Translations under genes and position numbers: made by a program
Origin: a bacterium
GTDB taxonomy: Bacteria; Patescibacteriota; Microgenomatia; UBA1406; GWC2-37-13
Reading direction: 5' to 3'
Assembly: GCA_021789995.1 (NCBI GenBank)
Contig: JAJYIQ010000001.1
Span: 1-64,000 of the forward strand
DNA: 64,000 nt
The notes under the pieces: generated by a model
The model's input: only the letters and a program-made list of their open reading frames with translations
Databases searched by the model: none
Told to the model about the DNA's origin: nothing
Shown here: piece by piece, positions 43,384 through 62,726 of the stretch
Position numbering within the stretch: the stretch's first letter is position 1
Layout of the letters: every line of letters begins with the position of its first letter

Positions 43384-43456
43384 GGGCCTGTAGCTCAACT
43401 GGTAGAGCAGTTCCCTCTTAAGGAATTGGTTCAGGGTTCGAGTCCCTGCAGGCTCA
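43384..43456 (+). tRNA. tRNA-Lys (anticodon CTT), insertion site of the element
   Basis: GGGCCTG...CAGGCTC acceptor, D arm GCTCAACTGGTAGAGC, anticodon loop CTCTTAA (anticodon CTT), T arm AGGG-TTCGAGT-CCCT. CCA is not encoded. Its last 26 bases are also the 3' end of the recombinase gene on the other strand. Confidence 0.95.
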
Positions 43457-45116
43457 CAAACTGGTATCGCGACTGGTAAAAGTCCTCGCTTAGCGCGATA
43501 CATGGCTCTAATTTCGGGGTTCCAAACACCAATTCATCGTAAGTGGGTGTTTTTTCGAATAATGCCCCGAAAAGAGCGGCACGACGCAGCGGATCAGGGG
43601 TTCCAAGAAGCAGGTCATCCAGGTGCTCCATATAGTAAGTTACGTTATCCAGCACGATCTCCATGTTGATAATTTCCATGTCTTTTTCCTGTTTGGTACT
43701 TTCCAGCTGCTCAATTTCCTTCTCTGCCTTGACAATATCCGCCTCGATGGCCTTAATGGCGATTTCTGACGAAAGTAGCTTTATTTTTTCTGTAGAAGAA
43801 ACAATCGACAGTTTTAAGGTCTCAATTCTTTTGCCAAGCTCCGTCGAATCGTTTTGCTTTTCTCCCATGCGGTTTTTCCACTCCTTCAGGGATTCTTCCT
43901 TCAGAGCTTGAATATAATCTTTGGTAATGTGCAATCCTTTGACGAAATTCTGAATGGTTTCCTCAAATTTCTTGGTTGGGATTCTTAAGTATTTATGGCC
44001 ACGGTTGCAGTGGTAGGCGGCAAAATGACCGCCCCATCTGCCTTTAGAAGCACTACCGTAAAAGGGCTTTTTACATAGAGGGCAAAGGACGTATTTTTTA
44101 TAAGGATATTCCGGATTCCGGGTAGATTTCTTAAGCTGCCAGTCTTTTGGCTGCCTTCTGGTGATTTTAACCTCGCCTTCGGACTCTGTAATGGTTAATT
44201 TTCCCTTATTTGCCTTATTAAACTTATCCAAGCACACCAAGCCTGTAAACTGCCCTTTTACGGGCTTTTCATCGGTCCACTTGTGGATGGAAATTCCGGC
44301 ATAGACCGGGTTTTCGATATAGCGCCAAAACTGCTTCAAACACAATGCTTTCCCGCCTTTTGTCCCGATAATCTGCGTTTTATCCTTTGGATTTCGTATA
44401 TATTGCTTCCTCGTTTTAAATCCGAGCCGGTTAATTTCATCCACAATCTCCCTGTCGGTCATGTTTCCCCGCGCCCGAAGTTCAAACATCCGGATTATCC
44501 ATTCCGACTCCTGGGGGTGTGCTTTAAGAATAACTCTTTTCCCATGTGCTGTTTCGGTCTTTTCATTGGCATACCCAAAGGGCGGGGTGCATACACGGTA
44601 GCCCATTCTAACGTAACGTATTTCGGCTCCGATCATTCTGGTTAAAATATCCCGGATTTCATCTTTTGCCCGTTCCGCCTCCAGAATTTCCGACTTTTTT
44701 GTTGGCGAATAGACGCTCCAGTCATATTTGATATCTAAATGCTCAAGGGTATTCACTTCCTGGTTACTGACAATGCCGTAAATATCCACCAGTTTGACGT
44801 TGTATTTGACCAGCTGCATTTTTAGAAAGTCATAGTAGTACGAACCGCCGCGGGTAAACCGGTCAATAGATTTGATAATGAAAAGTTGGATATCATTGTC
44901 TGGATTTTTGCAGTAATCGATCGCTTCCTGGACTGGCTGATCCTCATGCGAGGCCGACTCCATAAAAACGAAATACTTTTTAACATTAATGTTGTGGTTG
45001 CGGGCAAACTGTTCAATCTGTTCCTTTTGCGCCTGGGGGGAATCTCCCTGCAATCCTTGTTTAGTCGAGGAAACTCTGATGGCGGCAACGGCGTTTTCTG
45101 GTGTGTAAATAACCAT
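43431..45116 (-). CDS. Large serine recombinase / integrase
   Basis: 561 residues: resolvase domain (AAIRVSSTKQGLQGDSPQAQKEQIEQFA, nucleophile serine at residue 16 or 17; the SIDRFTRGG arginine motif), recombinase domain (YRVCTPPFGYANEKT...), a zinc-ribbon (CPLC...CNRGH) and a C-terminal coiled coil (KLSIVSSTEKIKLLSSEIAIK). It catalyses integration and excision. The last seven residues, SLQGLEP, are encoded by the antisense of the tRNA-Lys T arm and acceptor stem, which places the attachment site inside the tRNA gene. Confidence 0.93.
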   Translation of the reverse strand: MVIYTPENAVAAIRVSSTKQGLQGDSPQAQKEQIEQFARNHNINVKKYFVFMESASHEDQPVQEAIDYCKNPDNDIQLFIIKSIDRFTRGGSYYYDFLKMQLVKYNVKLVDIYGIVSNQEVNTLEHLDIKYDWSVYSPTKKSEILEAERAKDEIRDILTRMIGAEIRYVRMGYRVCTPPFGYANEKTETAHGKRVILKAHPQESEWIIRMFELRARGNMTDREIVDEINRLGFKTRKQYIRNPKDKTQIIGTKGGKALCLKQFWRYIENPVYAGISIHKWTDEKPVKGQFTGLVCLDKFNKANKGKLTITESEGEVKITRRQPKDWQLKKSTRNPEYPYKKYVLCPLCKKPFYGSASKGRWGGHFAAYHCNRGHKYLRIPTKKFEETIQNFVKGLHITKDYIQALKEESLKEWKNRMGEKQNDSTELGKRIETLKLSIVSSTEKIKLLSSEIAIKAIEADIVKAEKEIEQLESTKQEKDMEIINMEIVLDNVTYYMEHLDDLLLGTPDPLRRAALFGALFEKTPTYDELVFGTPKLEPCIALSEDFYQSRYQFVSLQGLEP

Positions 45117-45117
45117 A

Positions 45118-45285
45118 TTATTTTGCCGGTAGGTTTTTAAACTTTAAGCTTCCGGACTGCTGGTCTTCAATAATCCGGTCGATTATTAGATTGGCAATTA
45201 TCCGGAGCCGTTCTTCAGTAGCGGGGGTAATAGCAGGCTTCTTTTGATCCTCTTTTCCAGTCTCTAGTTTCTTTACTTGTTCCAT
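45118..45285 (-). CDS. Small hypothetical protein upstream of the recombinase
   Basis: 55 residues (MEQVKKLETGKEDQKKPAIT...), charged N terminus and an amphipathic helix EERLRIIANLIIDRIIEDQQSG. Its stop is 1 base before the recombinase ATG, so the two are coupled. Size and position suggest a recombination directionality or regulatory factor, but no motif proves it. Confidence 0.6.
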   Translation of the reverse strand: MEQVKKLETGKEDQKKPAITPATEERLRIIANLIIDRIIEDQQSGSLKFKNLPAK

Positions 45286-45308
45286 ATCCTTAAACTCTTA
45301 TTTATAAC

Positions 45309-45329
45309 ACTATCACTTATATGGATAGT
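45309..45329. promoter_or_regulatory. Inverted repeat upstream of the recombinase operon (operator candidate)
   Basis: ACTATC-N9-GATAGT, a perfect 6-bp inverted repeat, lies in the gap between the recombinase operon and the divergent gene at 45434. A minus-strand TTGACA is about 25 bp away, so a repressor here could control recombinase expression. Confidence 0.5.
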
Positions 45330-45433
45330 TTACTATAATAATTAAGTCTTTGTCAAGGGTATTTGGCATTTTGTTTTAGGTTTACCTCCATTGTCGATAA
45401 CTAAAGCTTATAGTATAATAACGGGAATTTAAT

Positions 45434-45943
45434 ATGACCTTAAAAGAAGCTAAAGTACGAACAGATTTTGAGGGCCCGATGGGCCATTTCTATGCACCCG
45501 TGCTTTATGCCGATGAATTAAAGAGTAGTTTTGGCAATCTTATTTTCAATTCTATTGTCGGCGGCTCTCTTCCATATTTATTCGTAGGCTATTTCAGGCC
45601 TAAGAATAGCCCCATCACTGAAGGTAAATGGTACTTTGCTAATGCCAGAAGACACGAAGAAATGCGGGTTGCGGTTTGTCAGACGGAATTTCCTGACCAG
45701 GAAGTCGATTATTATTACGGACAGATATTTCTTGGATCTGAAATAAAAGAAGGCGATATTAAATTTAGAAATTTAATACTCCATACCGATCTGCCAGCAT
45801 CGGATGAAGAAAGAAAAACAATTCTTCGTAACTGTTTCCACCTTATTGGCCGTGAGGATTTAAGAGATTTTATTGATGTTAACTGTCCCAACGAGTGGGA
45901 ATATACTTATATTCCCGATACAGACGATCTGGCTTCACTGTAG
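45434..45943 (+). CDS. Hypothetical protein of the element
   Basis: 169 residues, soluble, acidic, no signal peptide. Readable blocks are FEGPMGHFYAPVLYADELKSSFGNL, LPYLFVGYFRPKN and EVDYYYGQIFLGSEIKEGD. I do not recognise the family. It is the first plus-strand gene of the element, divergent from the recombinase operon, and stands about 130 bases ahead of the DNA-transfer ATPase gene. Confidence 0.65.
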   Translation: MTLKEAKVRTDFEGPMGHFYAPVLYADELKSSFGNLIFNSIVGGSLPYLFVGYFRPKNSPITEGKWYFANARRHEEMRVAVCQTEFPDQEVDYYYGQIFLGSEIKEGDIKFRNLILHTDLPASDEERKTILRNCFHLIGREDLRDFIDVNCPNEWEYTYIPDTDDLASL

Positions 45944-46076
45944 TAAAAGTTTACAGAGTTCTAATTAATTCTTCTCTCAATAACGTTATAGGCTTTACTT
46001 TCAAATAATATTTGCTATATTAGGCGGTAGATAAGCCATTAACAATTTATCTTGCCCGGAAAGCCTGCCCATTAAA

Positions 46077-48659
46077 ATGGGAAACATAAATTGGCACAAC
46101 CTGGAGGCTGGGTATTTAGTTAGTCATTTCTCTTCTTATTTAGCGTTACTTAAAGAGGGGTTTATTTCTGTCTCTTCGAACTATTTCTTCTTCTCTCCGG
46201 TCTTTCTTATTGGGATAGTTATCGCACTTGCTTTAATTTTTGTAATACGAAAGCTTTTTATCCTGCAAAGATCTCTTAGTGAAAAACCGGTGTTTTTGGA
46301 ACTAACCCCTCCGGCTTTAACGGATAAAACCTCCTATACCACAACCCAGCTTTTTTCAGTCGTCCACGAGCTGGGAAAAATTAAATACCTGGGCGATAAG
46401 ATTGTGGGCAAGAAAACTGTGTTTTCTTTTGAAATTGTCTCCACTCTTAACGAGGGAATCCGCTATTTCATAAGAACTACCAAGGAGGAAGAAACCAACA
46501 TTAAAAAAAGCCTTTTAGCCTATCTTCCCCAGGTAACGGTTAAAGAAGCCGATGATTATCTTTTTGGCAATTGTGACAGATCATGCTACCAAAAAATCTT
46601 TGATTTCCGGTTAAACCATCATTTTGCCTATCCTTTGAAAAAGCAGAATATATTGGAAGAACACGATCCCATTGCCTACATTACCGGCATGATGACCAAG
46701 CTCAAACCCGGAGAATTAGTCTCTTTCCAAATTGTCCTGGCGCCGGTCCAGCCAAAAGAAACGGAAACTATCTCCGACAAAATTCTTCACGGTGATGATG
46801 TTTTTAAATACCTGGAAAGAATACCCTTGCCGTCGCTTTTTAAACCGCTAACCTCTGGCTTATCGCTTTTATCTAAGCTGCTGCATCCTTTCGATACCGC
46901 ACCAAAAAGATCATATAACACCTTTGAACAGCAGGCGGTAAAAAGTATCCAGGAGAAAATCGAGCAACCGCTTTTTGAGACTTCGGTCAGATTACTGTTG
47001 ATAGTAAAGAACAAAAATCAGCTAAGGGAAAGAAAAAATGGTTTCGTTTCCTCCTTGGCTACTTTCTCGGTACCTAAATATCAAGCTTTGAAAGTTAAAT
47101 ATAATCTTCTGCCCTGGATCCTGGACAAAATCAACCTTTTTAACTTCCAAAAGAGGCGGTTGTCCTGGCTTTTAAATTCCAGTTCCCTGTATCTTTCCCT
47201 AACTGAAGTTTCCGATCTTTACCACTTTCCTTTTAAAAGGGTAACCCAGACGGAAGACCTGGTAAAAGTGTATTCCAAAGACCTGCCCGCGCCGCTATCG
47301 TTGAAAAATACCAAACTTGATTATGTTTTTGCCAAAAACAGCTACGGGGGTACGGTTACCGATATTGGCTTAACGGATAAGGAAAGAGAAAAACACATGT
47401 ATATTATTGGCGCTACCGGTACCGGCAAGACCACGATGATTATGTCCATGGTCGACAAAGACCTGAAAAACGGTAAGGGACTCTGTGTTATTGACCCTCA
47501 CGGCGACCTGGCAGAAAGCATTATTGCCTGTGTTCCCAACGATAGAATTTCGGATTTTATCTACTTTAACCCGGATGATATTAAATATCCGATTGGGCTG
47601 AACCTCCTGGAACTGACTCCCGGACTGGATGAAGACGAGCTTTTAAGGGAAAAAGAGCTTATTACTGAAAGCGTGGTTTCCCTGTTTAGAAAAATCTTCT
47701 CCGAAGTCTGGTCTGCCCATGCCCACCGGATTGAATACATCTTAAGAAATACAATCCAAACGGCACTGTGCCTGAAAGATCCAACCATCTTTACCGTTTA
47801 CCATCTTTTAACCGATCCGGAATTTCAAAAGTCGGCTATGAATGAGGTCTCGGATGAAAATTTGCAGAACTTCTGGAAAAACGAATTTGGCAAAGCCGGT
47901 GATTTCCAGAAGGTAAAAATGATCGGACCGATTACCTCAAGAATCGGCCGTTTCCTGTTCTCCCCGTCGGCTAAAAGAATTCTGGAGCAGCCCAGGTCAA
48001 CGATTAACTTTGATGAGATCCTGGACAAGGGAAAGATCCTGGTTTGCAACCTGTCTAAAGGCCGCCTGGGCGAAGACACGTCTGAAGTATTGGGAATCAT
48101 GATCTTAACTAAAATCCAGCTGGCTTCTCTTAAGAGAGCCAGAATCGATGAAGAGAAAAGAAAGACTTATTACGTTTACGTAGACGAATTTCAGACCTTT
48201 GCCACGCCCTCATTTATCCAGATGCTTTCCGAGTCGAGAAAATACAAGGTTTACCTGGTCATGGCCGAGCAGTCCACTTCCCAGCAAAAAGACCGCAATA
48301 TCACAAATGTCATTATTGCCAATGTGGGGACAGTCATCAGTTTTCGAAGTGCCAATCCTGAAGATGAAAAACTGATGCTACCGCAGTTTGAACCGTATGT
48401 TGACAAGGGGGAGATAACCAATCTACCTTCCTACAAGTTCTACATGAAGATTTCAGCGATTACTCCCCGGGAACCTTTCTCCGGGGAAACTATTTTAACT
48501 CAGGTAAATAAAGATAAAGACCGGTTCACGTCGCTTATCCAATCCTCCCGCGCCTTGTATGCCAAAGAATATATTGCCCCGGTCGCAACCAGGGTAATTC
48601 CCAAAGCAAAGAGACCGGTAAAAGAAGAAGTTTCCGAATCAATTAGCGTCCTGACTTAA
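46077..48659 (+). CDS. Type IV secretion-type DNA-transfer ATPase (VirD4/TrwB/HerA-like)
   Basis: 860 residues: two N-terminal membrane segments (FFFSPVFLIGIVIALALIFVI and a weaker one), about 350 residues of accessory domain, then a hexameric motor with Walker A GATGTGKTT, CVIDPHGDLAE, and Walker B YYVYVDEFQTFATPSF, followed by the sensor-like MAEQSTSQQ. This is the coupling-ATPase architecture that pumps DNA in conjugation. No relaxase was recognised beside it, though the next gene is a replication-relaxation protein often paired with it in CPR elements. Confidence 0.88.
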   Translation: MGNINWHNLEAGYLVSHFSSYLALLKEGFISVSSNYFFFSPVFLIGIVIALALIFVIRKLFILQRSLSEKPVFLELTPPALTDKTSYTTTQLFSVVHELGKIKYLGDKIVGKKTVFSFEIVSTLNEGIRYFIRTTKEEETNIKKSLLAYLPQVTVKEADDYLFGNCDRSCYQKIFDFRLNHHFAYPLKKQNILEEHDPIAYITGMMTKLKPGELVSFQIVLAPVQPKETETISDKILHGDDVFKYLERIPLPSLFKPLTSGLSLLSKLLHPFDTAPKRSYNTFEQQAVKSIQEKIEQPLFETSVRLLLIVKNKNQLRERKNGFVSSLATFSVPKYQALKVKYNLLPWILDKINLFNFQKRRLSWLLNSSSLYLSLTEVSDLYHFPFKRVTQTEDLVKVYSKDLPAPLSLKNTKLDYVFAKNSYGGTVTDIGLTDKEREKHMYIIGATGTGKTTMIMSMVDKDLKNGKGLCVIDPHGDLAESIIACVPNDRISDFIYFNPDDIKYPIGLNLLELTPGLDEDELLREKELITESVVSLFRKIFSEVWSAHAHRIEYILRNTIQTALCLKDPTIFTVYHLLTDPEFQKSAMNEVSDENLQNFWKNEFGKAGDFQKVKMIGPITSRIGRFLFSPSAKRILEQPRSTINFDEILDKGKILVCNLSKGRLGEDTSEVLGIMILTKIQLASLKRARIDEEKRKTYYVYVDEFQTFATPSFIQMLSESRKYKVYLVMAEQSTSQQKDRNITNVIIANVGTVISFRSANPEDEKLMLPQFEPYVDKGEITNLPSYKFYMKISAITPREPFSGETILTQVNKDKDRFTSLIQSSRALYAKEYIAPVATRVIPKAKRPVKEEVSESISVLT

Positions 48660-48666
48660 GTCACTT

Positions 48667-48690
48667 CCAGTGTCCGACTTTTGACACTGG
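48667..48690. other. 8-bp perfect hairpin after the ATPase gene
   Basis: CCAGTGTC-N8-GACACTGG starting 8 bases after the stop codon. There is no T tract on either side, so it may block RNA decay or be a weak terminator. Confidence 0.45.
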
Positions 48691-48739
48691 ATCTAACTAA
48701 ATTTGAGGCTAATTAAGTAAAAAGTCTTGTCTATATATT

Positions 48740-48757
48740 CCTTATACAAGTATAAGG
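48740..48757. promoter_or_regulatory. Palindrome overlapping the Shine-Dalgarno of the replication-relaxation gene
   Basis: CCTTATAC-AA-GTATAAGG: 8-bp perfect arms. The right arm runs into the AAGGAG ribosome-binding site ten bases before the ATG at 48771. TTGTCT and TATAAG boxes lie around it. It could be a repressor operator at the promoter or an RNA hairpin hiding the ribosome-binding site. Confidence 0.55.
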
Positions 48758-48770
48758 AGAGAAACAATAT

Positions 48771-49583
48771 ATGAGCGACAAGGGAACAATAAACCTAAAG
48801 ACTCCTGCTAAACTAAATCCCAAACTTGAAGAGATCCTCCTTTTAATTTATCGATTCCGTTTTCTAACTACTTCTCAAATCCAAATCCTTCTTAATCATA
48901 AATATCACAGCCGTATTAATCTCTGGCTAAACCAATTAACCACCAAAAAATATCTCAAACGATACTATGACCTTAAATTTGCTGGTGAGCCGGCTCTATA
49001 CTCTTTGGGAACCGCCGGAAGAAAATATTTTAAAACGCACCAAGAAATTAAGGGGATAAAAGCGTCGCTTCTTGATCGGGTCTGGACGGAGTACCGCAAT
49101 TCCTTGCAGTTTAAGCGTCATTGCCTGTTACTGGCGGATATTTATATTTCCCTCTTAGGCTTAACGAGTAAAGCAAAAGCCAAGCTGGGTTTTTATTCCA
49201 AAGTCGATCTTTTCGGGATGAAATTTATGGTTCTGCCCGAACCCTCGGGATATTTTTCTCTTGAAGACCAAAACGGCGTAACCAAACGCTATTTTCTGGA
49301 TATCTTTGACTACTTTGTTCCCAAAGACCTTTTTAGACGAATTAAAAAATACCTCTACTACTTTGAAAAGCGCTACTGGCAGGACCATACCGATAAACCC
49401 TTTCCGGAGATAATCCTGGTTTGTCCCAATAAAGCGGCAAGAACTTATCTGGAGAAAACCATCAAGGGTAATCTGGAAGATAAAGATTTTTCTCTTTCGT
49501 TTTACCTGGGTTTGCAGGAAGAAATTAAAGCCAAAGGTTTGATCCCTGAAACTTTACATAAAGTTCAGCTATACTCAAATTAG
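48771..49583 (+). CDS. Replication-relaxation family winged-helix protein
   Basis: 270 residues. N-terminal wHTH: EEILLLIYRFRFLTTSQIQILLNHKYHSRINLWLNQLTTKKYLKRYYD...YSLGTAGRKYF, the standard pattern of the replication-relaxation family found on plasmids and conjugative elements of Gram-positives and CPR bacteria. The C-terminal half is a nuclease-like or nucleic-acid-binding fold. Strong Shine-Dalgarno. The stop directly abuts the next gene's ATG. Confidence 0.8.
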   Translation: MSDKGTINLKTPAKLNPKLEEILLLIYRFRFLTTSQIQILLNHKYHSRINLWLNQLTTKKYLKRYYDLKFAGEPALYSLGTAGRKYFKTHQEIKGIKASLLDRVWTEYRNSLQFKRHCLLLADIYISLLGLTSKAKAKLGFYSKVDLFGMKFMVLPEPSGYFSLEDQNGVTKRYFLDIFDYFVPKDLFRRIKKYLYYFEKRYWQDHTDKPFPEIILVCPNKAARTYLEKTIKGNLEDKDFSLSFYLGLQEEIKAKGLIPETLHKVQLYSN

Positions 49584-50264
49584 ATGTATAAAATATCCCC
49601 ATCGGCTATCGGCGCACTTTTGGAATGTCCCCGTTGTCTCTGGCTTTTTGCTAACGAAAATCTAAAACGGCCAAGAGGCATCTATCCCTCACTTCCGGAC
49701 GGGATGGATGAAGTTTTTAAAAGCTACTTTGATTCCTACCGGCAAAAGGGAGAAGTCCCACCAGAGATTGACGGTAAGGTTGACGGCACTTTGTATACTG
49801 ACTTGGAAAAGCTGTCTAGGTGGCGTGATATCGATTATGGCCGGGGAGGTTTTGCGGCCGAGTTTCCTGAGATCCAGATAGTTTTGCGGGGAGCAATTGA
49901 CGACCTTTTAGTTAATGACCGGGGGGAATACGTTCCCTTTGACTTTAAAACGCGGGGGATGAAAAACAAGGAGGATACTCATAAGCATTATCAGCACCAA
50001 CTGGATTTATATTCCCTCTTGTTTCGGGAGAACGGTCTCAAACCCGCCTCCTATGGTTATCTGCTGTTTTTCTGGCCTAAAGCCTACGAAGCCGGGCAAA
50101 CCACTTTTGAGCACCAATTGGTTAAAATGGACATAAGTCCTGATGAAGGGTATAAGCTTCTGGAGAAGGTTTACCAAATCGCCAGTTCCGAAGAACCGGC
50201 CTCCCACGAGGAATGCGAGTATTGTCTTTACCGAAGCTTTTTGGAGAAGAATAATAACAGTTAA
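49584..50264 (+). CDS. Cas4/RecB-like PD-(D/E)XK nuclease with four cysteines
   Basis: 226 residues. SPSAIGALLECPRCLWLFANE opens the fold with cysteines 15 and 18; the nuclease core reads GAIDDLLVN...YVPFDFKTRG (D...DxK) with QLDLYSLL as the QxxxY motif; the end has CEYCLYR. The cysteine layout matches Cas4-type iron-sulphur exonucleases. It is not a CRISPR gene here (no array or cas1) and probably processes DNA ends for the element. Confidence 0.82.
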   Translation: MYKISPSAIGALLECPRCLWLFANENLKRPRGIYPSLPDGMDEVFKSYFDSYRQKGEVPPEIDGKVDGTLYTDLEKLSRWRDIDYGRGGFAAEFPEIQIVLRGAIDDLLVNDRGEYVPFDFKTRGMKNKEDTHKHYQHQLDLYSLLFRENGLKPASYGYLLFFWPKAYEAGQTTFEHQLVKMDISPDEGYKLLEKVYQIASSEEPASHEECEYCLYRSFLEKNNNS

Positions 50265-50271
50265 GGACGAC

Positions 50272-50313
50272 AAAAAAACCGCAGGCAAGAGTTGTTAGCT
50301 CCTACCCGCGGTT
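50272..50313 (-). terminator. Terminator of the DUF2958/RadC operon
   Basis: Minus strand ACCGCGGGTA...TTGCCTGCGGT imperfect stem followed by seven T, beginning a few bases after the DUF2958 stop codon. Confidence 0.75.
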
Positions 50314-50319
50314 ATAAGC

Positions 50320-50763
50320 TCACTTGTTCATGATCTCTGACAAGTGACAAGGCTTGAAATAGCGATCCCGCTCCACCGGCAATCCTAACTTGCCCCGGTT
50401 GGAAGTAAGCTCGCTTAGGCTAAAGTAACCCAGCTCCGGATAGTCGCCAACGACATACCCGTAGAACGTGTCTTTGCCGTCATACTCAATGGCATACCAC
50501 GTCCAGGAGAAGTCTGGATAAAAGAACTTGGCGATAACCATAGGGTTTTCCTCGTTCTCCTGGGAATATAACGGTGGAAGTTGTTTAAGCACCTCTTTTG
50601 TCAGTAGTTGCATAGATTGCTCCTTTCTATAGCCTGTAAGGATCTTTTGTCCTTTTGAGCTTTCAAAACTGATAAACTCAAGCTTCTTGCCGTAAATAGC
50701 GACTCTAAACTCCTTGAGCCGTTCGTCTACGGTATAGCCTTGGTACGTTGGTAATATATACAT
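50320..50763 (-). CDS. DUF2958-domain protein with a second in-frame start
   Basis: 147 residues from the ATG at 50763 (AGGAGG 8 bases upstream). Residues about 50-147 (MQLLTKEVLKQLPPLYSQENEENP...WTWYAIEYDG...ELGYFSLSEL...VERDRYFKP) are a full DUF2958 domain, common on plasmids and function unknown. The first 50 residues (YTVDERLKEFRVAIYGKKLEFISFES) resemble a separate small plasmid protein. A second perfect ribosome-binding site (AGAAAGGAG) precedes the internal ATG at 50613, so a 97-residue DUF2958 protein can be made alone. Confidence 0.8.
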   Translation of the reverse strand: MYILPTYQGYTVDERLKEFRVAIYGKKLEFISFESSKGQKILTGYRKEQSMQLLTKEVLKQLPPLYSQENEENPMVIAKFFYPDFSWTWYAIEYDGKDTFYGYVVGDYPELGYFSLSELTSNRGKLGLPVERDRYFKPCHLSEIMNK

Positions 50764-50793
50764 AAAAATCACCTCCTTTCTTTTTGAAAACTG

Positions 50794-51210
50794 TTAAATA
50801 AGCCGTTGTTCCTGGAAGCTGGTAAACGAATCCCGGGTAAAAATGATATGGTCAACAATCGGTATTCCCAGGATATCGCCGGCTTTAACCAACCGTTTCG
50901 TTAATTCCAGGTCTTCTTCGGATGGCCTGGTGACTCCTGATGGATGGTTATGGGCGATAATAAGCTGGGCGCTTCGCAACCCAATGGCCCGGGTAAACAC
51001 TTCCCGCGGATGAACGAGTGAGGTATTTAAGGTACCTACCGAAACCAGTTCAAACGCTTTGATTTTGTTTCGTACATCCAGGTGCAGTACGAAAAAGTGT
51101 TCTTTGTCCCGGTCAACTCTATCCAGGGTTGCAAAATATCCCGATAAGACTCGGTACCCGTGTTCCGGGTTATCCACGACCCGCTCTTGTTCTGAAACAT
51201 GAATGATCAT
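50794..51210 (-). CDS. RadC-like JAB/MPN-domain protein
   Basis: 138 residues with the metal motif IIAHNHPSGVTRPSEEDLELTKRLVKAGDILGIPIVDHIIF (HNHPSG plus a later Asp). Only the MPN domain is present, without the helix-hairpin-helix part of chromosomal RadC, as usual on plasmids and ICEs. AAAGGAG Shine-Dalgarno. A GGACAGGACAAA box lies 50 bases upstream of the ATG. Confidence 0.87.
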   Translation of the reverse strand: MIIHVSEQERVVDNPEHGYRVLSGYFATLDRVDRDKEHFFVLHLDVRNKIKAFELVSVGTLNTSLVHPREVFTRAIGLRSAQLIIAHNHPSGVTRPSEEDLELTKRLVKAGDILGIPIVDHIIFTRDSFTSFQEQRLI

Positions 51211-51259
51211 AGGTTTGTATCTCCTTTCTGAAGGCCAGAGAACAACTAAAATGTGTAAT

Positions 51260-51271
51260 TTTGTCCTGTCC
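51260..51271 (-). promoter_or_regulatory. GGACAGGACAAA box upstream of the radC-like gene
   Basis: Direct repeat GGACA-GGACA followed by AA, identical to the boxes at 51508 and 62627 but without the conserved upstream 50 bp. A TAATCA sits at the -10 spacing seen in the other two; no clear -35. Confidence 0.55.
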
Positions 51272-51458
51272 TTGGCCTATTGATTAAAAAGCTGAGAAAC
51301 AGAAGAAAGATGGAGAATCAGAAGCATATACAAAGGGGCATGGGGCGATAAAACAGATGTCAAAAGTTCCGACGCAGGAGGAAGGATTTTAACGCCTGTC
51401 AGAAAAATGCGTACCTTAGAAAATATCCTTTATTACCATTGCATTTTTCTACCGGCTT

Positions 51459-51521
51459 AAAACCCACCTTTTGATAGATGGTTTGAGACCCATATAATGA
51501 AAAAGCAGGACAGGACAAAAC
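51459..51521 (+). promoter_or_regulatory. Promoter module A upstream of avd (duplicated at lexA)
   Basis: TTGATA (51471-51476), 16-bp spacer, TATAAT (51493-51498), then 9 bases to GGACAGGACAAA (51508-51519), which therefore covers the expected transcription start. The whole 63 bp matches 62574-62640 with a few substitutions and a 4-base indel in the spacer. Confidence 0.75.
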
Positions 51522-51584
51522 AAAGTTGAAATAGATTCTTCAAGGGTGCTATAAAAATTTTTCTTTATTCGCTACAGTTATAGA

Positions 51585-51998
51585 ATGGACGTTGAAAAGC
51601 TGGTTCTTTTTCAAAAAGCATATGACTTTTTACTCTGGCTCTATTTTCTGGTACAACATCTGCCCAAACGACATAAACCGGTCCTCGGTAAATATCTTGA
51701 AGAATCAGCCATCTCGCTGTTACTTCTTATTATTCATGCCAATAAAGCGTCTGACAGGCGAAGACACCGGATTCAAAAGGAAATCTCCGATGAGCTGGAT
51801 CTCCTGCGAATATTGATCCGTCTCACCAAAGACCTGCGCTTTATGAGTGTTAAACAATACGCGTTTTCGGCAGAAAAACTCAACGAGATGGGAAAGATCC
51901 TGTACGGATGGAGTAATTTTCAAAGAAATACAGCCCGCAAAAACAGTCCGCAAAAGAAACCACTTGCAAACAAGGTCGAAAATCTGCGATTATTTTAA
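51585..51998 (+). CDS. avd: DGR accessory variability determinant (Avd), four-helix bundle protein
   Basis: 137 residues, all helical, basic C terminus. VLFQKAYDFLLWLYFLVQHLPKRHKPVLGKYLEESAISLLLLIIHANKASD is the typical start of bAvd-type proteins (S23-like fold). Avd forms a pentameric barrel that binds reverse transcriptase and template RNA and is needed for mutagenic cDNA synthesis. TR starts 22 bases after its stop. No Shine-Dalgarno was seen; promoter module A is ~85 bases upstream. Confidence 0.9.
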   Translation: MDVEKLVLFQKAYDFLLWLYFLVQHLPKRHKPVLGKYLEESAISLLLLIIHANKASDRRRHRIQKEISDELDLLRILIRLTKDLRFMSVKQYAFSAEKLNEMGKILYGWSNFQRNTARKNSPQKKPLANKVENLRLF

Positions 51999-52020
51999 GA
52001 GGGGAAGATTAAAAACACTT

Positions 52021-52142
52021 GAGTGTTTTCCTGCGCGGGGGGAATTGGAATAACACCTCGAACACAGGAGCGTTCACACTGAACTTGAATTGGACGACCA
52101 CTAATACGAACAACAATGTTGGGTTCCGCTGCGCCAGTGATC
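52021..52142 (+). repeat. DGR template repeat (TR)
   Basis: 122 bp aligned without gaps to the variable repeat 3825 bp downstream. Thirteen positions differ; twelve are adenines in TR (52044, 52049, 52050, 52052, 52061, 52076, 52078, 52089, 52104, 52109, 52112, 52116), one is T52046. The last 26 bp, ending GCGCCAGTGATC, are identical in both and form the initiation-of-mutagenic-homing region. The hypervariable codons are AAT/AAC, which cannot mutate to a stop by single or double adenine changes. An open frame through TR is incidental. Confidence 0.97.
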
Positions 52143-52327
52143 AAAAATTGCGCCAGATGAGTCGGTATTCGTTTAAGGATGAATACCCCGGATCTAATAA
52201 GGATCACCGTATGTCTTCTCCTTTTTCGCTTTATCGCGGAAAAACAGAAAGCCTGTATTCTTGCTCCGCCACCGGCGGGACAAGGTAAGTAGGTGTAGCC
52301 GGGTCGGTCATGTATGATTAAGAATAG

Positions 52328-52350
52328 GTAGCCGATCCGGCTACTTTTTT
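52328..52350 (+). terminator. Terminator between TR and the reverse transcriptase gene, with an alternative partner
   Basis: GTAGCCG-ATC-CGGCTAC followed by six T, ending 8 bases before the RT start. Upstream, GTAGCCGGGTCGG (52295-52307) can pair with the right arm over 13 positions, giving two mutually exclusive folds, one of which may let polymerase read through into RT. Confidence 0.75.
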
Positions 52351-52357
52351 ATATCCC

Positions 52358-53410
52358 ATGTATGACATTATCTGTAGTTTATCGACGCTTCTTTATTCCT
52401 ATTATCAGGCGAGACTTTGCAAACGATACAAAGATAATATCCTGCGCTTTGGGTTTTTCCTCGAAAGTAATCTTTTAAGACTGCAGCGTGATTTGCAAAC
52501 GGAAATGTATACGCCCTCTTCCTATGTCTGTTTTACCATCTTTGATCCCAAAGTGCGGAAAGTCGCAGCTCCGGCATTTCGCGACCGCGTGCTCCAGCAT
52601 GCGGTTGTTTCCCAGATCGAACCGCTGTTTGAAAAACAGTTTATCTATGATTCCTATGCGTGCCGGAAAGGAAAGGGCACACATTTTGGCATGAAGCGGG
52701 TGAAAAAGTTTCTTCAGGCAGCTCATTCTTTGTATCCCGATACAAATGTGTATTGCCTGCGCATGGACGTTGATAAATTTTTTGCCAGCGTTTCCTGGGA
52801 TGTACTGCTTCATTTAATATTCCGGCAGGTAGCATGTCCCAAGACGAGGCGCCTTCTGGAAAAAATCGTCACGCAACACCGCTGTTTTGATACCCATAAC
52901 CATCCAATAGCGCCTCCACCGGATATTATCTGCCCTGCCAGGCGGCGGGGTCTTCCCATAGGCAATCTCACCAGCCAGCTCTTTGCCAATATTTACCTCA
53001 ATGAACTTGATCATTTCGTTAAAGAAACCTTGCATATCAGCTGGTATGCCCGCTATATGGATGATTTTCTTGTTATTCATCCTGAAAAAACATACCTGAA
53101 AATCATAAAACAACAACTTGAGTCTTTTCTCAATGAGAAACTCCACCTGCGTCTCAGTTACAAAAAAGTCGTCATATCCAACGTACAAGACGGTATCCCG
53201 TTTGTCGGCTACCGCATCTTCTATGACCACGTGCTTATTCGGGGAAGTACCCTTATCAGAAGCCAGAGAAAGCTCAAAAGCAGACGGCGGGCCAGAAAAT
53301 ACGAGCGGATTTCCAAAAGGACGTATAAAGCCGGTGTTGCCTCAATTAACGGGCATCTTCGCTTTGCCAACAGCCATCATCTTGCCAAAAAACTGCTGCA
53401 CTGGAAATAA
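52358..53410 (+). CDS. DGR reverse transcriptase
   Basis: 350 residues, RT palm and fingers only. RMDVDKFF (Asp137) and YMDD (233-236) give the catalytic aspartates. Motif 4 reads GLPIGNLTSQ (198-207), where DGR enzymes have SQ and group II intron enzymes have QG...SP; there is no maturase, HNH or integrase part. It copies TR RNA with errors at adenines. Downstream of avd and TR, the usual DGR order. Confidence 0.97.
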   Translation: MYDIICSLSTLLYSYYQARLCKRYKDNILRFGFFLESNLLRLQRDLQTEMYTPSSYVCFTIFDPKVRKVAAPAFRDRVLQHAVVSQIEPLFEKQFIYDSYACRKGKGTHFGMKRVKKFLQAAHSLYPDTNVYCLRMDVDKFFASVSWDVLLHLIFRQVACPKTRRLLEKIVTQHRCFDTHNHPIAPPPDIICPARRRGLPIGNLTSQLFANIYLNELDHFVKETLHISWYARYMDDFLVIHPEKTYLKIIKQQLESFLNEKLHLRLSYKKVVISNVQDGIPFVGYRIFYDHVLIRGSTLIRSQRKLKSRRRARKYERISKRTYKAGVASINGHLRFANSHHLAKKLLHWK

Positions 53411-53573
53411 AATCCGCCGCTTCAGTGATTGAAAAAGAGCCTCATTTAGCGGCGCCTACGGAGAAAACTGAAACTAGAAGTTCCCTACGGCGAAAAATAC
53501 AACACTGATTGCACTAATACAGAAAGTGTATTCTCAGGCAGTAATTTAACTGCAAAAATGCTATAATGAAAAC

Positions 53574-53837
53574 ATGATCAATTGGTCGACTGATGAGCTA
53601 ACATTTAAGAAAAAATACCCTAAGGAATACAAAATTTGGCGGTTAGTTCAGCTTATTAATTACGGTATTGGTACGGAAAAACTAAACGAATTGGATATTC
53701 GAAAGAATTGGGATACAATAAAAGACAGGCTCGATCCGTATAAAAAGCGAGCGCTTGAGTACCTTATATGGGACAAACTATACTCACTCCCAAACAATCT
53801 GAGTTTTTGGAACTTGTCCAAGGAGACAGCCAGATAG
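53574..53837 (+). CDS. Small protein preceding AbiEii, antitoxin candidate
   Basis: 87 residues (INWSTDELTFKKKYPKEYKIWRLVQLINYGIGTEKLNELDIRKNWDTIKDRLD...). It overlaps the AbiEii start by 70 bases, and TATAAT is 6 bases before its ATG. No clear wHTH signature is visible. Position suggests the partner of the toxin; the function is inferred. Confidence 0.65.
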   Translation: MINWSTDELTFKKKYPKEYKIWRLVQLINYGIGTEKLNELDIRKNWDTIKDRLDPYKKRALEYLIWDKLYSLPNNLSFWNLSKETAR

Positions 53838-54439
53838 TCAAACATTTCTACTTGACTGGCGGTACGGCTTTGGCAGAGTTCTACTTACACCACCGATTAT
53901 CGGAAGATATTGATTTATTTACAGAAAAGCAGGAAGTGGATCAGTCACTAACTGACGCCTTTCTTAAAAAAAATTCATCGCGTCTCCACGTTACAAAAAT
54001 TGACAGGTCTCAATTTATGGGGCTTTATAGTTATCACCTGACATACACCGATGGTAAGACTCTTAAAATAGATTTTAACTATTATCCGTTTCCTAAAATT
54101 GAACAAGGAACAAAGTTTGGTAGTTTATGGGTTGATAGTCTTACAGATATAGCTGCAAACAAAATTCATACACTTTTTATGAAGCCTCGAACAAGGGACT
54201 ACATCGATCTTTACTTTATTTTTAAGCATCAAAAATTTGACCTCGAAAAATTAATACTGTTGGCTAAAGCGAAGTTTGATTGGGATATAGATAAAATGAA
54301 CCTTGCCAATCAGTTTATTCGCGTAAAAGATATTAAAAGGGAAGATTACCCTACAGTATTAGTCCCATTTAGCGTTGAAGAGATGGAAACGTTTTTCCTT
54401 AATTTAGTCAAAGGTTTGAAAAGCGAGATTCTTCAATAA
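53768..54439 (+). CDS. AbiEii/AbiGii-family nucleotidyltransferase (type IV-like toxin)
   Basis: 223 residues. FYLTGGTALAEFYLHHRLSEDIDLF carries the G-G and DxD nucleotidyltransferase motif of the AbiEii family; KPRTRDYIDLYFIFK follows in the C-terminal half. These enzymes add nucleotides to tRNA or other targets and cause growth arrest unless countered by AbiEi. It sits between the DGR reverse transcriptase and the target gene. Confidence 0.87.
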   Translation: MGQTILTPKQSEFLELVQGDSQIVKHFYLTGGTALAEFYLHHRLSEDIDLFTEKQEVDQSLTDAFLKKNSSRLHVTKIDRSQFMGLYSYHLTYTDGKTLKIDFNYYPFPKIEQGTKFGSLWVDSLTDIAANKIHTLFMKPRTRDYIDLYFIFKHQKFDLEKLILLAKAKFDWDIDKMNLANQFIRVKDIKREDYPTVLVPFSVEEMETFFLNLVKGLKSEILQ

Positions 54440-54569
54440 GATAAAACCCTCACATCAGGGTACCACAGAAAATCCAGATTATTGGCATAGACTAAAAATT
54501 GGATTTCCGCCTGCGTGGAAATGACAATCTGTGTCAAGAAGTGTAAGCTCTTGCCTCCTTCACTTTCCC

Positions 54570-54597
54570 TTGTATTTTTCCAGGCGTTTTCTATAAT
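54570..54597 (+). promoter_or_regulatory. Promoter of the DGR target operon
   Basis: TTGTAT (54570-54575), 16-bp spacer, TATAAT (54592-54597). Leader of about 48 nt with a small CCCAT/ATGGG hairpin (54608-54622) and AGGA before the GTG start. Unlike avd it has no GGACAGGACAAA box. Confidence 0.65.
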
Positions 54598-54652
54598 GAT
54601 AATAGTCGCCCATTTTACATGGGAGTATTGTAGTATTAATAGGAATGACACC

Positions 54653-57600
54653 GTGAAACATTTTATTTCAAGATTTAAACAATGGTTAGCCCGGTACTTT
54701 TTTGAACCCCGATTTCATTTTAGTCGGCTGCAGTTTAACCTCGTCAGCGTTTTTTTCGTCGGATTAGGTATTGTTATTGGCCTTTATTTCACTGCCTTTC
54801 ACCTTATTCCCACCATTTTTGCGGTTAACGACACCAGCAAAACCTGGACTTTCAATACGGCCAATGCCGGTAATTACACCTATGACAATACGTTGGTGGC
54901 GGTAGATAACAGCGGCGCCCGGCCCATAACCGGCGCCAATAAATTTACCAATCCTGCTTTTGCCAGCGACAACACGAGTTGGGCCACCGCTTCGGCCGCT
55001 CCTGCCGGCTGGGTTGAGGTTCCCGGCAACAGCACCTTTAGCACGACCAACTTCCTGGCCATGAAATACGACGCCAAATGCGCGGCTAATGCCACGCCAA
55101 CGGTCGGTCTCACCTCACCTGACACCGGCTATCATACCTACGCCAATAATACTACCGCCTGTACCAGTGCCAACAGCAGACAGGTCGTATCGGTCGCCTC
55201 GGGTTACCCCATTGCCAATATTAACCACACAGATGCGGCTTCCTACTGCGGCAATGTCTCCGTCGGCGGTTCGACTGCCCACCTTATAAGAAACGACGAG
55301 TGGCAGACCATTGCCCAGAATGCAGAAGGACAAAACACCAACTGGTCCGGCGGCAGCGTGGGCAGCGGTTATTTATATGCCGGCCATAATGATAATTCAC
55401 CGGCAACCGCGCTTCCCGCCTCAACGACCGATACCGGCAACTACCGCTGCGCCTATACCGACTCGGGCGGCTCAACCGAAGCACCGTCTCCCTGTCCCTC
55501 AAATACCGGGAGCGGCCAGTCTGGCTCAACAGGTAACCAGGTGAGAACGTTATCTCTTTCAAACGGCGCAGTCATCTGGGATATCGCCGGAAACGTCTGG
55601 GAGCATGTGGCCCGCAGCACCAACAATAGCGGCGATGACACCTCAACCATGACCACGCTTCCTGCCTGTTCCAACAACAGTGCCGGTTGGGAATGGTGCC
55701 AATACGGCGGCTCCACCAGCCCATATGTTTCAGCCTGGACCTCAGCAGTGCCTCAGGCAAATGTCGCACCGTCCCACAGTACCTATGATTCAAACTCTGG
55801 CGTAGGCCAGGTCTATACCTACGGCACCGGCGCCGGTCAAAGTACGAGTGTTTTCCTGCGCGGGGGGACTGGGGTTGACACCTCGGACACAGGAGCGTTC
55901 GCGCTGAACTTGAGTTGGACGACCACTACTACGTACTACAGTGTTGGGTTCCGCTGCGCCAGTGATCCCGTAGCCATCTCTCAATCTTGGTCTTCCTCAT
56001 CTGGTCGGGGGGGTTCGGGGGGGGATACGGTCTCCGTAGGTTCTGTTTCCGACGGCCTTTTAACCGAAAGCATCAATGTCGGGGACACTTCAACCTATGA
56101 TTTTTCCGCCTATGTGTATGACAACACCGCCGGCAATGTCGGCGGCACGGTTTCTTCTTCCATTGCCCAACTGTATGCCAACGGGTCAACCGTGACCACA
56201 ACCTATACCAGCGTCGGGTCGGGATGGTATAAACTCTCCGGCTCGGTTACCGGTGTGGCTTCCTCGGTAACTTACGGTCTTTTGGTTAAATCGGGTAAAA
56301 CCGTAAAAGTCGACGACTTCACCCTCAGTAAGCAAGGCACGTACAGTGTTTATACCACCAGCGCTTATTCCAATGCGCAGGTCGTCACCTGGGACAGTTT
56401 TTGTGAAGGAACCATAACCGGCGGCACCTGCTCCAATGACGGGGTGACGGCTTCCGGCAATGCCTCGGTCGGCTATCAGATTTGCACCGACAATGGCTCA
56501 AGCTGTGGCTACTCAAGCGGCTCACGGTGGCAATACTACACCGGCGGCGCCTGGACCAATGCAGCCGATGCTACCCAAACCAATACCGCGGCCCAACTCA
56601 CCCAAGCAGCCATGCAGGCTTTGTCTACCACCTCACAAAAAATTTCCGTCAAGGCGGTCATGGGTTTTGGCGGAGCTGATACACCGGCAATTACTAATTT
56701 AAGCGTGGGTTTGACCACCGATACGACCCCACCAACCACCAACGCTTCCAGTATCCTCGCGTATATCTCAAACGGCGGGTCAAGCCTGTCCTCAGGCGGC
56801 TGGACCAACGGCTCAAGCCCCTATTTTTCCTGGACCGCGGGAGCTGACAACGCCGGCGGATCGGGACTCAAGGGCTATTGTTTGTATTTAGGCACTGACT
56901 CAGCAGGCGATCCGGCTACAGCCAAAGGACTGTTGGGTACCAGTCCGGTTTCAACCACCGGTACCACCTGTCAGTTTATTGTTGCTGGAACCAGTATCGA
57001 TCTGGCCACTTCCTCCTACCAAGGGTCAACCTGGCTTTCGTCTTCTTCCTCACCCTACTACCTTAACATCAAAGCGGTGGATAACGGCGGCAATATTTAT
57101 GGCGGCAGTTCCGCCGCGTTTTCCTTTTATTTTGACAACACCGGCCCGACGAATGTTTCCTACATTTCCTGCGCCTCAGGCAACTTTTCCAATGTTACGG
57201 ACATGAGTTTTAACTGGCCAACGTCGGGGAGTGCAGCCTCCTCAGACAGTAACTCCGGCGTTTTAGGCTGGCAGTACCAGATAAATTCTTCTTCCGGCAG
57301 CTGGCAGGGAACCACCCACAGCTCAAGCCTAAATCTGGACTATATTCCGGCCACCGCCTCAGCATACACGCTGGTTTCCTCCCGCGACTCAGGAGCCATT
57401 AACACCGGCTCCAATGTTATCTATTTCCGCACGGTAGATAGTGCCGGCAATCTGTCTTCAGGTTCGACCATCCGTACCTGCAGCCTATCCTACGGCGGAG
57501 CGGCACCGACTTTTGGTTCAACCGACGTGGTCACGGTCACGCCGTCAACCTCAACGACCAATTCCTATGCCCTGTCCTGGCCGGCAGCCACCCCGACCTC

Positions 57601-59401
57601 CGGAAAAACCATTGCCCATTACTATTACATGGTCAATGTCTCTCCGCCGTCAACCTTAGCGACTCTGCAAGGCACTGCCACAACCTACATTGATAACGGC
57701 ACCAGTTTAACTGTCGCCGCGACATCTCTTGCCAATGCTACTAAAGGCACCAACACCGTGTATGTCGTCGCCATTGATAACGCCTCAACTCCCAATTATT
57801 CCCCTTCAAACTATATTACGGGGACATTCACCTTAAACTCCACCAATCCCGATCCGGTGCAAAGCCTGGTGGCTTCCGATTCGTCCATCAAAGATAAGTC
57901 ACAGTGGAATGTCACGCTCACGTGGGCAGCGCCGTCCTACCAGGGTGCAGGCAATTTGACGTACAAAGTCTATCGTTCAACCGACGATTCCACCTTTTCG
58001 TATGTAGGTTCCACATCAGGGTTGTCATATATTGATAACACACCCTCATCAACGCTCTACTATTATTATGTGGTTACGGTTGACGGAGCAAGCGCCGTAA
58101 GCAGCAACTCAACAACCGTTTCTCTGACCCCAACCGGCAAGTATACGACGGCGCCAACACTTTCTTCGGGTCCTTCTGCCGGTTCCATTACCACCAAGAA
58201 GGCAACGATTACCTGGTCAACCTCACGAAACGGCGATTCGCGGGTTGCCTACGGTACCACCTCCGGTTCGTACGGTTCGGTGGAAGCAGCTAACTCCGAC
58301 CAGGTTACCAGCCACTCGATCGACCTTTCAGGCTTAACGTCCGGCACAACCTATTATTACAAAGCCAAGTGGACCGACGGGGACGGCAACCAGGGTACCT
58401 CAGACGAAAAAAGCTTTACGACCACTTCAGCGCCCACGGTTTCGGCTGTTTCGGCAGGAAGCATTGGTTTAACCAGCGCGTATATCTCATTTACAATTTA
58501 CAACGGCTCCAAAGCCACGGTCCAATACGGATTGACTACGTCCTACGGGGGATCGACCTCCGTCTCAACCTCCAATACCGGATCAGGTGCCACCTATTCA
58601 GTGCCGTTAACAGGACTAACCGACGGCTCACCATACCATTACCGCATTGTCATGGAGGATGCTGACGGCAACCAATACAATAGCGATGACTATACCGACT
58701 TGGTGACGCTGCCCCGGCCGAAAGTCACCACCGTCCGTCTGGCCCAAGTGGAAAACACCGCTCAAACGACGATTTTAGTTACCTGGACCACTAATACTGA
58801 TATTTCCTCCATTGTCACCTATTGGCCGCAGGGCAATTCGGGCGCTGCCAAAGATGAGGTGAATGTTGCCTTAACCACCGGAGAGCACCAGATGATTATC
58901 CGGGGTCTGGAGCCGCAGACTGACTATATGCTGGTTGTCAAAGGGAGGGATAAGCTGGGGAATGAGGCCACATCCGACTCGCAGCGATTTACCACTGCCA
59001 CCGACACCCGGCCGCCACAGCTTCTGGAGCTGGCGGTGCAGGGCGAAACCATACCGCCGGTGGCCGGCACAGCCCAACACTCGATTGCCCAGCTCATTGT
59101 TTCCTGGAACACGGACAAACCGGGTACCTCCCAGGTGGAATTTTCAGAGGGCACCGGCACCACCTATTCCCAAAAAACCCAGGAAGACAGCAATCTCACC
59201 ATGAACCACCTGGTCGTTATTTCCGGCCTGACTCCTTCCCAGGTGTATCATCTGCGCGCCATTTCGGTTGACAAGTACGGCAATATCGGCAATTCGATTG
59301 ACACGGTGACCATTGCGCCTAAAGCTACTGACAACGCCTTAAACTTAGTCATTACCAGTTTGGGAGAGGCTTTTGGATTTTTAGGAGGATTAGGAAAATG
59401 A
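54653..59401 (+). CDS. DGR target: membrane-anchored variable FGE/C-type-lectin-fold protein with fibronectin-like stalk
   Basis: 1582 residues from the GTG at 54653 (AGGA upstream; the frame further up would have to begin inside the promoter). An N-terminal membrane helix (LVSVFFVGLGIVIGLYFTAFHLIPTIFA, about 25-50) is followed by an FGE-sulfatase-type domain (GNVWEHVA near 313; VFLRGG...VGFRCASD at 399-438 is the variable repeat), a jelly-roll-like region (about 456-560), Ig-like repeats and at least four fibronectin-III-like domains from about 1168 to the end. Ser/Thr/Gly/Asn-rich. Its stop overlaps the ABC ATPase start (ATGA). The variable face probably binds changing surface ligands. Confidence 0.93.
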   Translation: MKHFISRFKQWLARYFFEPRFHFSRLQFNLVSVFFVGLGIVIGLYFTAFHLIPTIFAVNDTSKTWTFNTANAGNYTYDNTLVAVDNSGARPITGANKFTNPAFASDNTSWATASAAPAGWVEVPGNSTFSTTNFLAMKYDAKCAANATPTVGLTSPDTGYHTYANNTTACTSANSRQVVSVASGYPIANINHTDAASYCGNVSVGGSTAHLIRNDEWQTIAQNAEGQNTNWSGGSVGSGYLYAGHNDNSPATALPASTTDTGNYRCAYTDSGGSTEAPSPCPSNTGSGQSGSTGNQVRTLSLSNGAVIWDIAGNVWEHVARSTNNSGDDTSTMTTLPACSNNSAGWEWCQYGGSTSPYVSAWTSAVPQANVAPSHSTYDSNSGVGQVYTYGTGAGQSTSVFLRGGTGVDTSDTGAFALNLSWTTTTTYYSVGFRCASDPVAISQSWSSSSGRGGSGGDTVSVGSVSDGLLTESINVGDTSTYDFSAYVYDNTAGNVGGTVSSSIAQLYANGSTVTTTYTSVGSGWYKLSGSVTGVASSVTYGLLVKSGKTVKVDDFTLSKQGTYSVYTTSAYSNAQVVTWDSFCEGTITGGTCSNDGVTASGNASVGYQICTDNGSSCGYSSGSRWQYYTGGAWTNAADATQTNTAAQLTQAAMQALSTTSQKISVKAVMGFGGADTPAITNLSVGLTTDTTPPTTNASSILAYISNGGSSLSSGGWTNGSSPYFSWTAGADNAGGSGLKGYCLYLGTDSAGDPATAKGLLGTSPVSTTGTTCQFIVAGTSIDLATSSYQGSTWLSSSSSPYYLNIKAVDNGGNIYGGSSAAFSFYFDNTGPTNVSYISCASGNFSNVTDMSFNWPTSGSAASSDSNSGVLGWQYQINSSSGSWQGTTHSSSLNLDYIPATASAYTLVSSRDSGAINTGSNVIYFRTVDSAGNLSSGSTIRTCSLSYGGAAPTFGSTDVVTVTPSTSTTNSYALSWPAATPTSGKTIAHYYYMVNVSPPSTLATLQGTATTYIDNGTSLTVAATSLANATKGTNTVYVVAIDNASTPNYSPSNYITGTFTLNSTNPDPVQSLVASDSSIKDKSQWNVTLTWAAPSYQGAGNLTYKVYRSTDDSTFSYVGSTSGLSYIDNTPSSTLYYYYVVTVDGASAVSSNSTTVSLTPTGKYTTAPTLSSGPSAGSITTKKATITWSTSRNGDSRVAYGTTSGSYGSVEAANSDQVTSHSIDLSGLTSGTTYYYKAKWTDGDGNQGTSDEKSFTTTSAPTVSAVSAGSIGLTSAYISFTIYNGSKATVQYGLTTSYGGSTSVSTSNTGSGATYSVPLTGLTDGSPYHYRIVMEDADGNQYNSDDYTDLVTLPRPKVTTVRLAQVENTAQTTILVTWTTNTDISSIVTYWPQGNSGAAKDEVNVALTTGEHQMIIRGLEPQTDYMLVVKGRDKLGNEATSDSQRFTTATDTRPPQLLELAVQGETIPPVAGTAQHSIAQLIVSWNTDKPGTSQVEFSEGTGTTYSQKTQEDSNLTMNHLVVISGLTPSQVYHLRAISVDKYGNIGNSIDTVTIAPKATDNALNLVITSLGEAFGFLGGLGK
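55846..55967 (+). repeat. DGR variable repeat (VR)
   Basis: 122 bp, residues about 399-438 of the target. Compared with TR it changes NWNN to TGVD, N to D, T to A, N to S, and the N-rich run TTNTNNN to TTTTYYS. The 3' 26 bp are identical to TR and are the homing site; sequence diverges directly after GTGATC. Confidence 0.97.
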
Positions 59402-62472: not shown

Positions 62473-62573
62473 GGATAACTCCGGTGAATGATATAAATCC
62501 TTTTATTTTAGAGAAAAAGTACCGCAATGATCCTTCGTATATTATTGTATAGCAACGTTTTTTTAATCTGCAT

Positions 62574-62640
62574 AAAACCCACCTTTTGATAGATGTTTTG
62601 AGAACCCGCGATATAATTAGAAGGCAGGACAGGACAAAGC
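62574..62640 (+). promoter_or_regulatory. Promoter module B upstream of the lexA-like gene (copy of module A)
   Basis: Shares AAAACCCACCTTTTGATAGA, TATAAT (62612-62617) and, 9 bases later, GGACAGGACAAA (62627-62638) with module A at 51459. The TTGATA to TATAAT spacing is 20 here against 16 in module A, so this copy may be a weaker promoter. Confidence 0.7.
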
Positions 62641-62690
62641 AGATTAAGCGTGTAAAGCCATAATGAGTTCAAATTTAATATTATCTGTTG

Positions 62691-62722: not shown

Positions 62723-62726
62723 AACC

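Follow-up and report, generated by a model that had tools for sequence, protein, structure and literature searches.

Large serine recombinases share conserved active-site residues, a Ser and Arg motif and a DR motif. In phiC31 and Bxb1 the Resolvase, Recombinase and zinc-ribbon domains follow one another in this order and the common core is very short; to our knowledge, an attP lying between the recombinase body and a C-terminal domain has not been described for integrases of this type. The excerpted text of a paper that names phiC31 and Bxb1 gives tRNA genes as frequent targets, and the terms used found no passage on self-splitting in those excerpts (PMC12884075). The Bxz2 serine integrase has a common core of 4 bp (PMC2884959, excerpts). 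Two described systems come closest to the locus reported here. The streptococcal rumA ICEs have one serine integrase and direct repeats of 2-21 bp, one of which lies within the integrase gene, and on integration their integrase and target genes trade 3' parts, the frame of both proteins being altered (PMC4701971, excerpts). The archaeal suicidal (SSV-type) integrases carry the recombination site in their gene and are split into parts that include the catalytic domain; the excerpts of the 2021 review that describes them call self-disrupting recombinases exclusively archaeal (PMC8371274). A search of the open-access literature found no report of an integrase split in candidate-phylum bacteria.

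The recombinase gene and its tRNA target

We analysed a stretch of 64,000 nucleotides (the window, positions 1-64000 of contig C3) from a genome of 898 kb in four contigs (G000). The locus under study consists of the following features, in window coordinates unless marked C3.

43384..43457, plus strand: tRNA-Lys(CTT), the integration target, whole after integration (ARAGORN, Rfam)
43431..45116, minus strand: large serine recombinase (integrase), shortened integrated form of 561 aa (Pfam Resolvase)
43451..43457, no strand assigned: attL core, GTGAGCC on the integrase strand; its partner core attR, C3:74711-74717, lies beyond the window
43451..64000, no strand assigned: in-window part of the 31.3-kb element, which continues to C3:74717

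A preliminary description of this DNA had proposed that the recombinase gene overlaps tRNA-Lys(CTT), and the open reading frame on the minus strand together with the ARAGORN tRNA on the plus strand bears this out. The overlap, given there as 26 bases, measures 27 nt with the stop included (24 coding nucleotides plus the stop codon at 43431-43433, inside the tRNA); the final 8 codons and the stop are thus antisense tRNA. The N-terminal part of the protein matches Pfam PF00239 Resolvase above cut-off (3.5e-8), the Recombinase domain (19.1 bits, cut-off 21.1) and the zinc ribbon (14.7, cut-off 25.3) both score below theirs, and the Recombinase domain is above cut-off in the relatives L140 and L091. 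The predicted active-site residues R14, S16, D85 and R86 are invariant across 6 recombinase sequences, and by these residues the window protein would qualify as a large serine recombinase. No solved structure matched the integrase profile at 0.001. Since conservation within the protein ends near residue 549, directly before the tRNA, the tRNA-coded tail is not conserved, and such tails differ freely between recombinase loci.

A recombinase match is present in 23 of 57 genomes, the window's own included; the closest match among the related genomes is 80% identical and lies on an 8435-base contig. At 21 of the 30 loci examined in related genomes, a set in which one locus lacks a stop, the recombinase ORF enters an antisense tRNA or tmRNA 3' end. 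When each species was scanned through a single genome, 80 close-family loci were kept: 61 that overlap a tRNA, 3 with a tRNA nearby and no overlap, 13 with none and 3 whose ORFs leave the contig. Because overlap recurs at 21/30 related and 61/80 close-family loci it is not a matter of chance, and the proposed tie of the recombinase to tRNA 3' ends holds for the family, with these 61 ORFs running antisense into such an end. The overlap spans 4 to 90 nt, and ten tRNA isotypes are targeted (Glu 27, Lys 8, Gln 7, Leu 5, Arg 4, Gly 4, Ser 2, Trp 2, Val 1, Phe 1). By the genomes in which its sequences occur, the close integrase family is one of candidate-phylum (CPR) bacteria. No relatives were found in viral contigs among 110 pattern stretches, and plasmids and phages gave no match at 1e-20.

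Several further observations concern these loci. More distant serine recombinases (L010-L028) likewise end antisense in the 3' ends of tRNA-His, Glu, Asn, Phe, Trp or Ile or of tmRNA. In two assemblies (L123, L125) runs of N lie within the tRNA beside the integrase end, perhaps reflecting assembly ambiguity at the site. Two entries titled Micrarchaeota and Chitinophagales (L098, L108) carry the candidate-phylum integrase and are probably mis-binned contigs. In the vicinity of the window's own tRNA, two direct repeats of ~38 bp (TTCGAYCG...CGGTCTCGGTGTAAACAC) lie at 42993-43060, directly past tRNA-Arg, and G000 (42344-43457) and the sister genome G001 (L066, 9470-10196) have the tRNA-Arg/tRNA-Lys pair in opposite orientations with respect to the adjacent methyltransferase gene.

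The element and its far end

From the integrase inwards, the in-window part of the element carries the following cargo.

46077..48659, plus strand: type IV coupling-protein-like ATPase (TrwB_AAD_bind, TraG-D_C)
48771..49583, plus strand: Replic_Relax protein
49584..50264, plus strand: PD-(D/E)XK nuclease
50794..51210, minus strand: RadC-like JAB protein
51585..51998, plus strand: bAvd, accessory protein of a diversity-generating retroelement
52021..52142, plus strand: template repeat, compared with the variable repeat at 55846-55967
52358..53410, plus strand: reverse transcriptase of the retroelement
54515..59401, plus strand: 1628-aa target protein holding the variable repeat (55846-55967)

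Further, the element encodes a VirB4 of the CD1110 family (361 bits, cut-off 325), an M23 peptidase and a pilin-like match. We regard it as ICE-like on account of the coupling protein, Replic_Relax, the PD-(D/E)XK nuclease, RadC, VirB4, the M23 peptidase and the pilin-like match; integrase, coupling protein and VirB4, the combination by which ICEs are recognized, are all predicted from its sequence. The element proteins scanned include Replic_Relax but no classical relaxase. The 31.3-kb element is integrative and probably conjugative. It also carries a complete diversity-generating retroelement (window 51585-59401), in which 12 of the 13 differences between template and variable repeat fall at a template A.

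The preliminary description had expected the tRNA 3' end to recur beyond 64 kb. As a long repeat it is absent: allowing 2 mismatches at most, the tRNA-end sequence GAGTCCCTGCAGGCTCA has a single occurrence in the 898-kb assembly, and a long tRNA-end repeat was therefore rejected as attR in G000. Loci that lack a tRNA next to the integrase gave the clue to the far end: in L140 the ORF runs on into a tail of ~45 residues. A profile derived from this tail finds orphan tails at the far ends of integrated elements, and in G000 it matches C3:74583-74786 on the minus strand (E 1e-16). Two features, both outside the window, are found there.

C3:74583-74717, minus strand: orphan integrase tail of ~45 residues (tail profile)
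C3:74143-74583, minus strand: PLD-like gene, next to the orphan tail

The two ends have in common a 7-bp core that reads GTGAGCC on the integrase strand and lies at 43451-43457 and C3:74711-74717, which gives a core-to-core element length of 31,260 bp. In G000 taken alone, this 7-bp match is weak, being reached by 25 of 300 shuffles. The sequence at the integrase end is CCAGTTT GTGAGCC TGCAGGGAC and that at the far end AAGTCG GTGAGCC AGCTGTCC. Both cores read GTG AGC C in the same codon phase, and when the two sides are joined in silico the circle encodes an open integrase of 598 residues. These data support an excised form in which the integrase would regain a conserved ~45-residue C-terminal domain and a closely coupled downstream gene. 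The crossover proposed in the preliminary description, within both genes, stands, with a different placement: it falls at the tRNA 3' terminus, where only 7 bp are common. Its second suggestion, that excision alters the recombinase 3' end as a built-in switch, agrees with the orphan tail, the in-frame core, the in-silico fusion and an exchange in G059 given below; at the level of DNA the switch is there, as two predicted integrase 3' ends, one integrated and one excised.

Integrase and tail in related genomes

The tail profile, the common frame of integrase and tail, the L140 fusion, the G059 exchange and the empty sites together lead us to place attP inside the integrase gene, with the C-terminus swapped by integration. 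Very probably, then, integration at the tRNA-Lys terminus swaps the tail and excision re-fuses it, giving two forms of the integrase that are expected to differ. The evidence is set out below against three other readings.

Among the 372 genomes of the class, 47 carry the tail family, in open frames that measure 32-285 aa and never reach integrase length, and 26 of the 47 tail-bearing genomes hold a close integrase. L090 has an ORF of 285 aa with a partial tail match, and G234 has a frame of 263 aa. A PLD match lies beside 31 of the 38 tail loci listed, and the tail stop and the following start often overlap or abut, an arrangement that would suit an exchange that is real and a tail that has no effect on recombination, its part being to link translation of the PLD-like gene to that of the integrase in the circle. 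The tail protein itself argues, indirectly, against so passive a role. In the closest tail pairs pS is 0.45-0.75, a range that excludes two nearly identical pairs, versus a pN of 0.04-0.16; pN being well below pS, the tail is under purifying selection and must be translated in some state. It has invariant Trp, Leu and Gly residues and a predicted fold consisting of a compact helix and a beta-hairpin (mean pLDDT 79, pTM 0.47); among solved structures the tail has no match below 0.1. We therefore consider a tail that serves coupling alone possible, and rather unlikely.

It would be otherwise if the integrase ended naturally near residue 550 and merely ran on into the tRNA, the far-end ORF being a small gene with no relation to it whose start lies at the core or close by. 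The end of conservation near residue 549, the freely varying tRNA-coded tails and the ATG, GTG or TTG present at the core of certain orphan tails are what such a run-on would produce, but the pairing of integrases with tails makes it improbable. From 23 integrase/tail pairs, 4 without an ARAGORN tRNA were left out (G072, G335, G058, G070), and G068 lay outside the set. A core of 6-9 nt at the tRNA terminus is present in 12 of the 19 pairs kept, and all 12 are in frame, in two registers; having common ancestry, these pairs do not amount to 12 independent trials. Overall 16/19 pairs are in frame; the three that are not are G042 and G315, both anchored by 3 nt, and G060, with a 5-nt anchor and a broken integrase whose match ends at residue 499. 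Core sharing sums to 118 in the true pairs versus a permuted mean of 87.6, a value as large being reached in none of 2000 permutations. G000 uses the sequence GTGAGC in register 0, G051 and G262 use it in register 1, and in either register the tail agrees. Of 26 comparisons over a wider stretch, 20 were in frame by longest match, the match lying away from the core for several pairs.

Natural fusions and one exact exchange also weigh against an incidental run-on. In L140, a Replic_Relax relative is followed by integrase and tail in a single ORF of 605 aa and then by PLD; by its sequence this is a natural fused copy. G061 carries a fused integrase remnant, and in L157 the integrase is fused to a divergent tail, a close copy of which is orphaned in G068. 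In G059 a protein gene serves as target: the integrase reads in frame into the C-part of DUF1846 (profile 204-331), the DUF1846 N-part (2-204) is joined to the tail, the core GAGCTC is in codon phase 0 on both sides, and the rejoined host protein matches DUF1846 profile 2-330 at 1.7e-101. As read from the sequence, two target-gene halves have been exchanged exactly, and in frame, with two integrase halves.

The empty-site comparison proposed earlier could be made in two relatives, reciprocally. In G062, tRNA-Leu(GAG) is uninterrupted and homology with G061 begins at the tRNA CCA end, with 19-20 of 20 bases matching inside the boundary versus 3-6 outside; in G061, tRNA-Leu(CAG) is uninterrupted and its flanks are those that a ~20-kb element separates in G062, beside whose attR ~0.9 kb has no match in the G061 empty site. 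These reciprocal sites place the element boundary at the tRNA terminus. For the attR flank gene of G000, a search of the other 56 genomes gave no relative, and there is accordingly no empty site for the window's own element; G001, which has an identical 74-nt tRNA-Lys without integrase, was rejected as such because of its rearranged neighbourhood.

In many tyrosine integrases the crossover lies in the tRNA T-loop and the element restores the tRNA 3' end. A crossover of this kind, first favoured from G012, G063 and G068 and dropped once the tails were mapped to the tRNA terminus, is highly improbable here: T-loop-to-end tRNA fragments of 16-24 nt do lie near the G012, G063, G068 and G071 loci, but no such fragment exists in G000 or most regions scanned, the tails sit at a terminus-type core, and the G061/G062 homology begins at the CCA end. 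Such fragments, single or tandem, are seen beside tRNAs or just outside attR (L076 14021-14245; G063:C20 near 120014; L216 near 5888; L204 near 5616). The serine integrase core does not explain them, and they are perhaps traces of other integrases.

A possible switch and its relation to known systems

We propose, then, an attP inside the integrase gene that would lie between a conserved recombinase body of about 550 residues and a C-terminal domain of ~45 residues, whose stop would overlap or abut the start of the PLD-like gene. Recombination at the ~7-bp core, at the tRNA-Lys 3' terminus, would keep the tRNA whole, provide the integrated integrase with a tail read from antisense tRNA and leave the PLD gene and the genuine tail stranded 31 kb away, at the opposite element end; excision would rejoin integrase body, tail and PLD gene. 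The full-length form, together with the PLD protein, would be made only from the circle and would most likely be the integrating form. The shortened form retains all recognised recombinase domains, and an altered direction or activity may stabilise the integrated state.

Anatomy, common core, reading frame, natural fusion, selection on the tail, empty sites and reciprocal exchange all appear in the genomes compared, and from them we infer that the two integrase forms behave differently and that the swap regulates direction. Tentatively, this may be a family of bacterial serine integrases, distributed over the candidate phyla, in which tail and PLD protein, present only in the circle, drive integration, and their loss locks the element or sets excision with no separate directionality factor. 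What makes a serine integrase integrate or excise is a central question, with a bearing on the use of these enzymes as tools, and here nature would supply matched long and short forms of one integrase, tied to the state of the element. Where the repeats of an element are too short to be recognized, an orphan tail with its PLD gene can also reveal the far end, as in the present case.

The very short core is shared with phiC31 and Bxb1, and so would be the domain order Resolvase, Recombinase, zinc ribbon, of which the last two score below cut-off in the window protein. The likeness to the streptococcal rumA ICEs, as far as the excerpts describe them (PMC4701971), extends to a serine integrase, a repeat within its gene and a reciprocal 3' exchange, which is found with DUF1846 in G059 and with the antisense of the tRNA in the window. 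The rumA target, however, is a protein gene, whereas here tRNA 3' termini of many isotypes are the main targets (tRNA-Lys in the window), and the frame change reported there is replaced by the predicted loss and regain, in frame, of a conserved domain. With the suicidal (SSV-type) integrases, as portrayed in the excerpted review (PMC8371274), the locus shares an attP in the integrase gene and a gene split on integration. Those are archaeal tyrosine recombinases and the present one is a serine recombinase of candidate-phylum bacteria; unlike them, it keeps its catalytic body whole, only a ~45-residue tail being detached. On the strength of its sequences, this family represents a serine variant, in bacteria, of the self-splitting integrases, with many tRNAs as targets and a conserved domain detachable in frame, and would thus provide a bacterial serine-recombinase counterpart to a class that the excerpts of the 2021 review called exclusively archaeal (PMC8371274).
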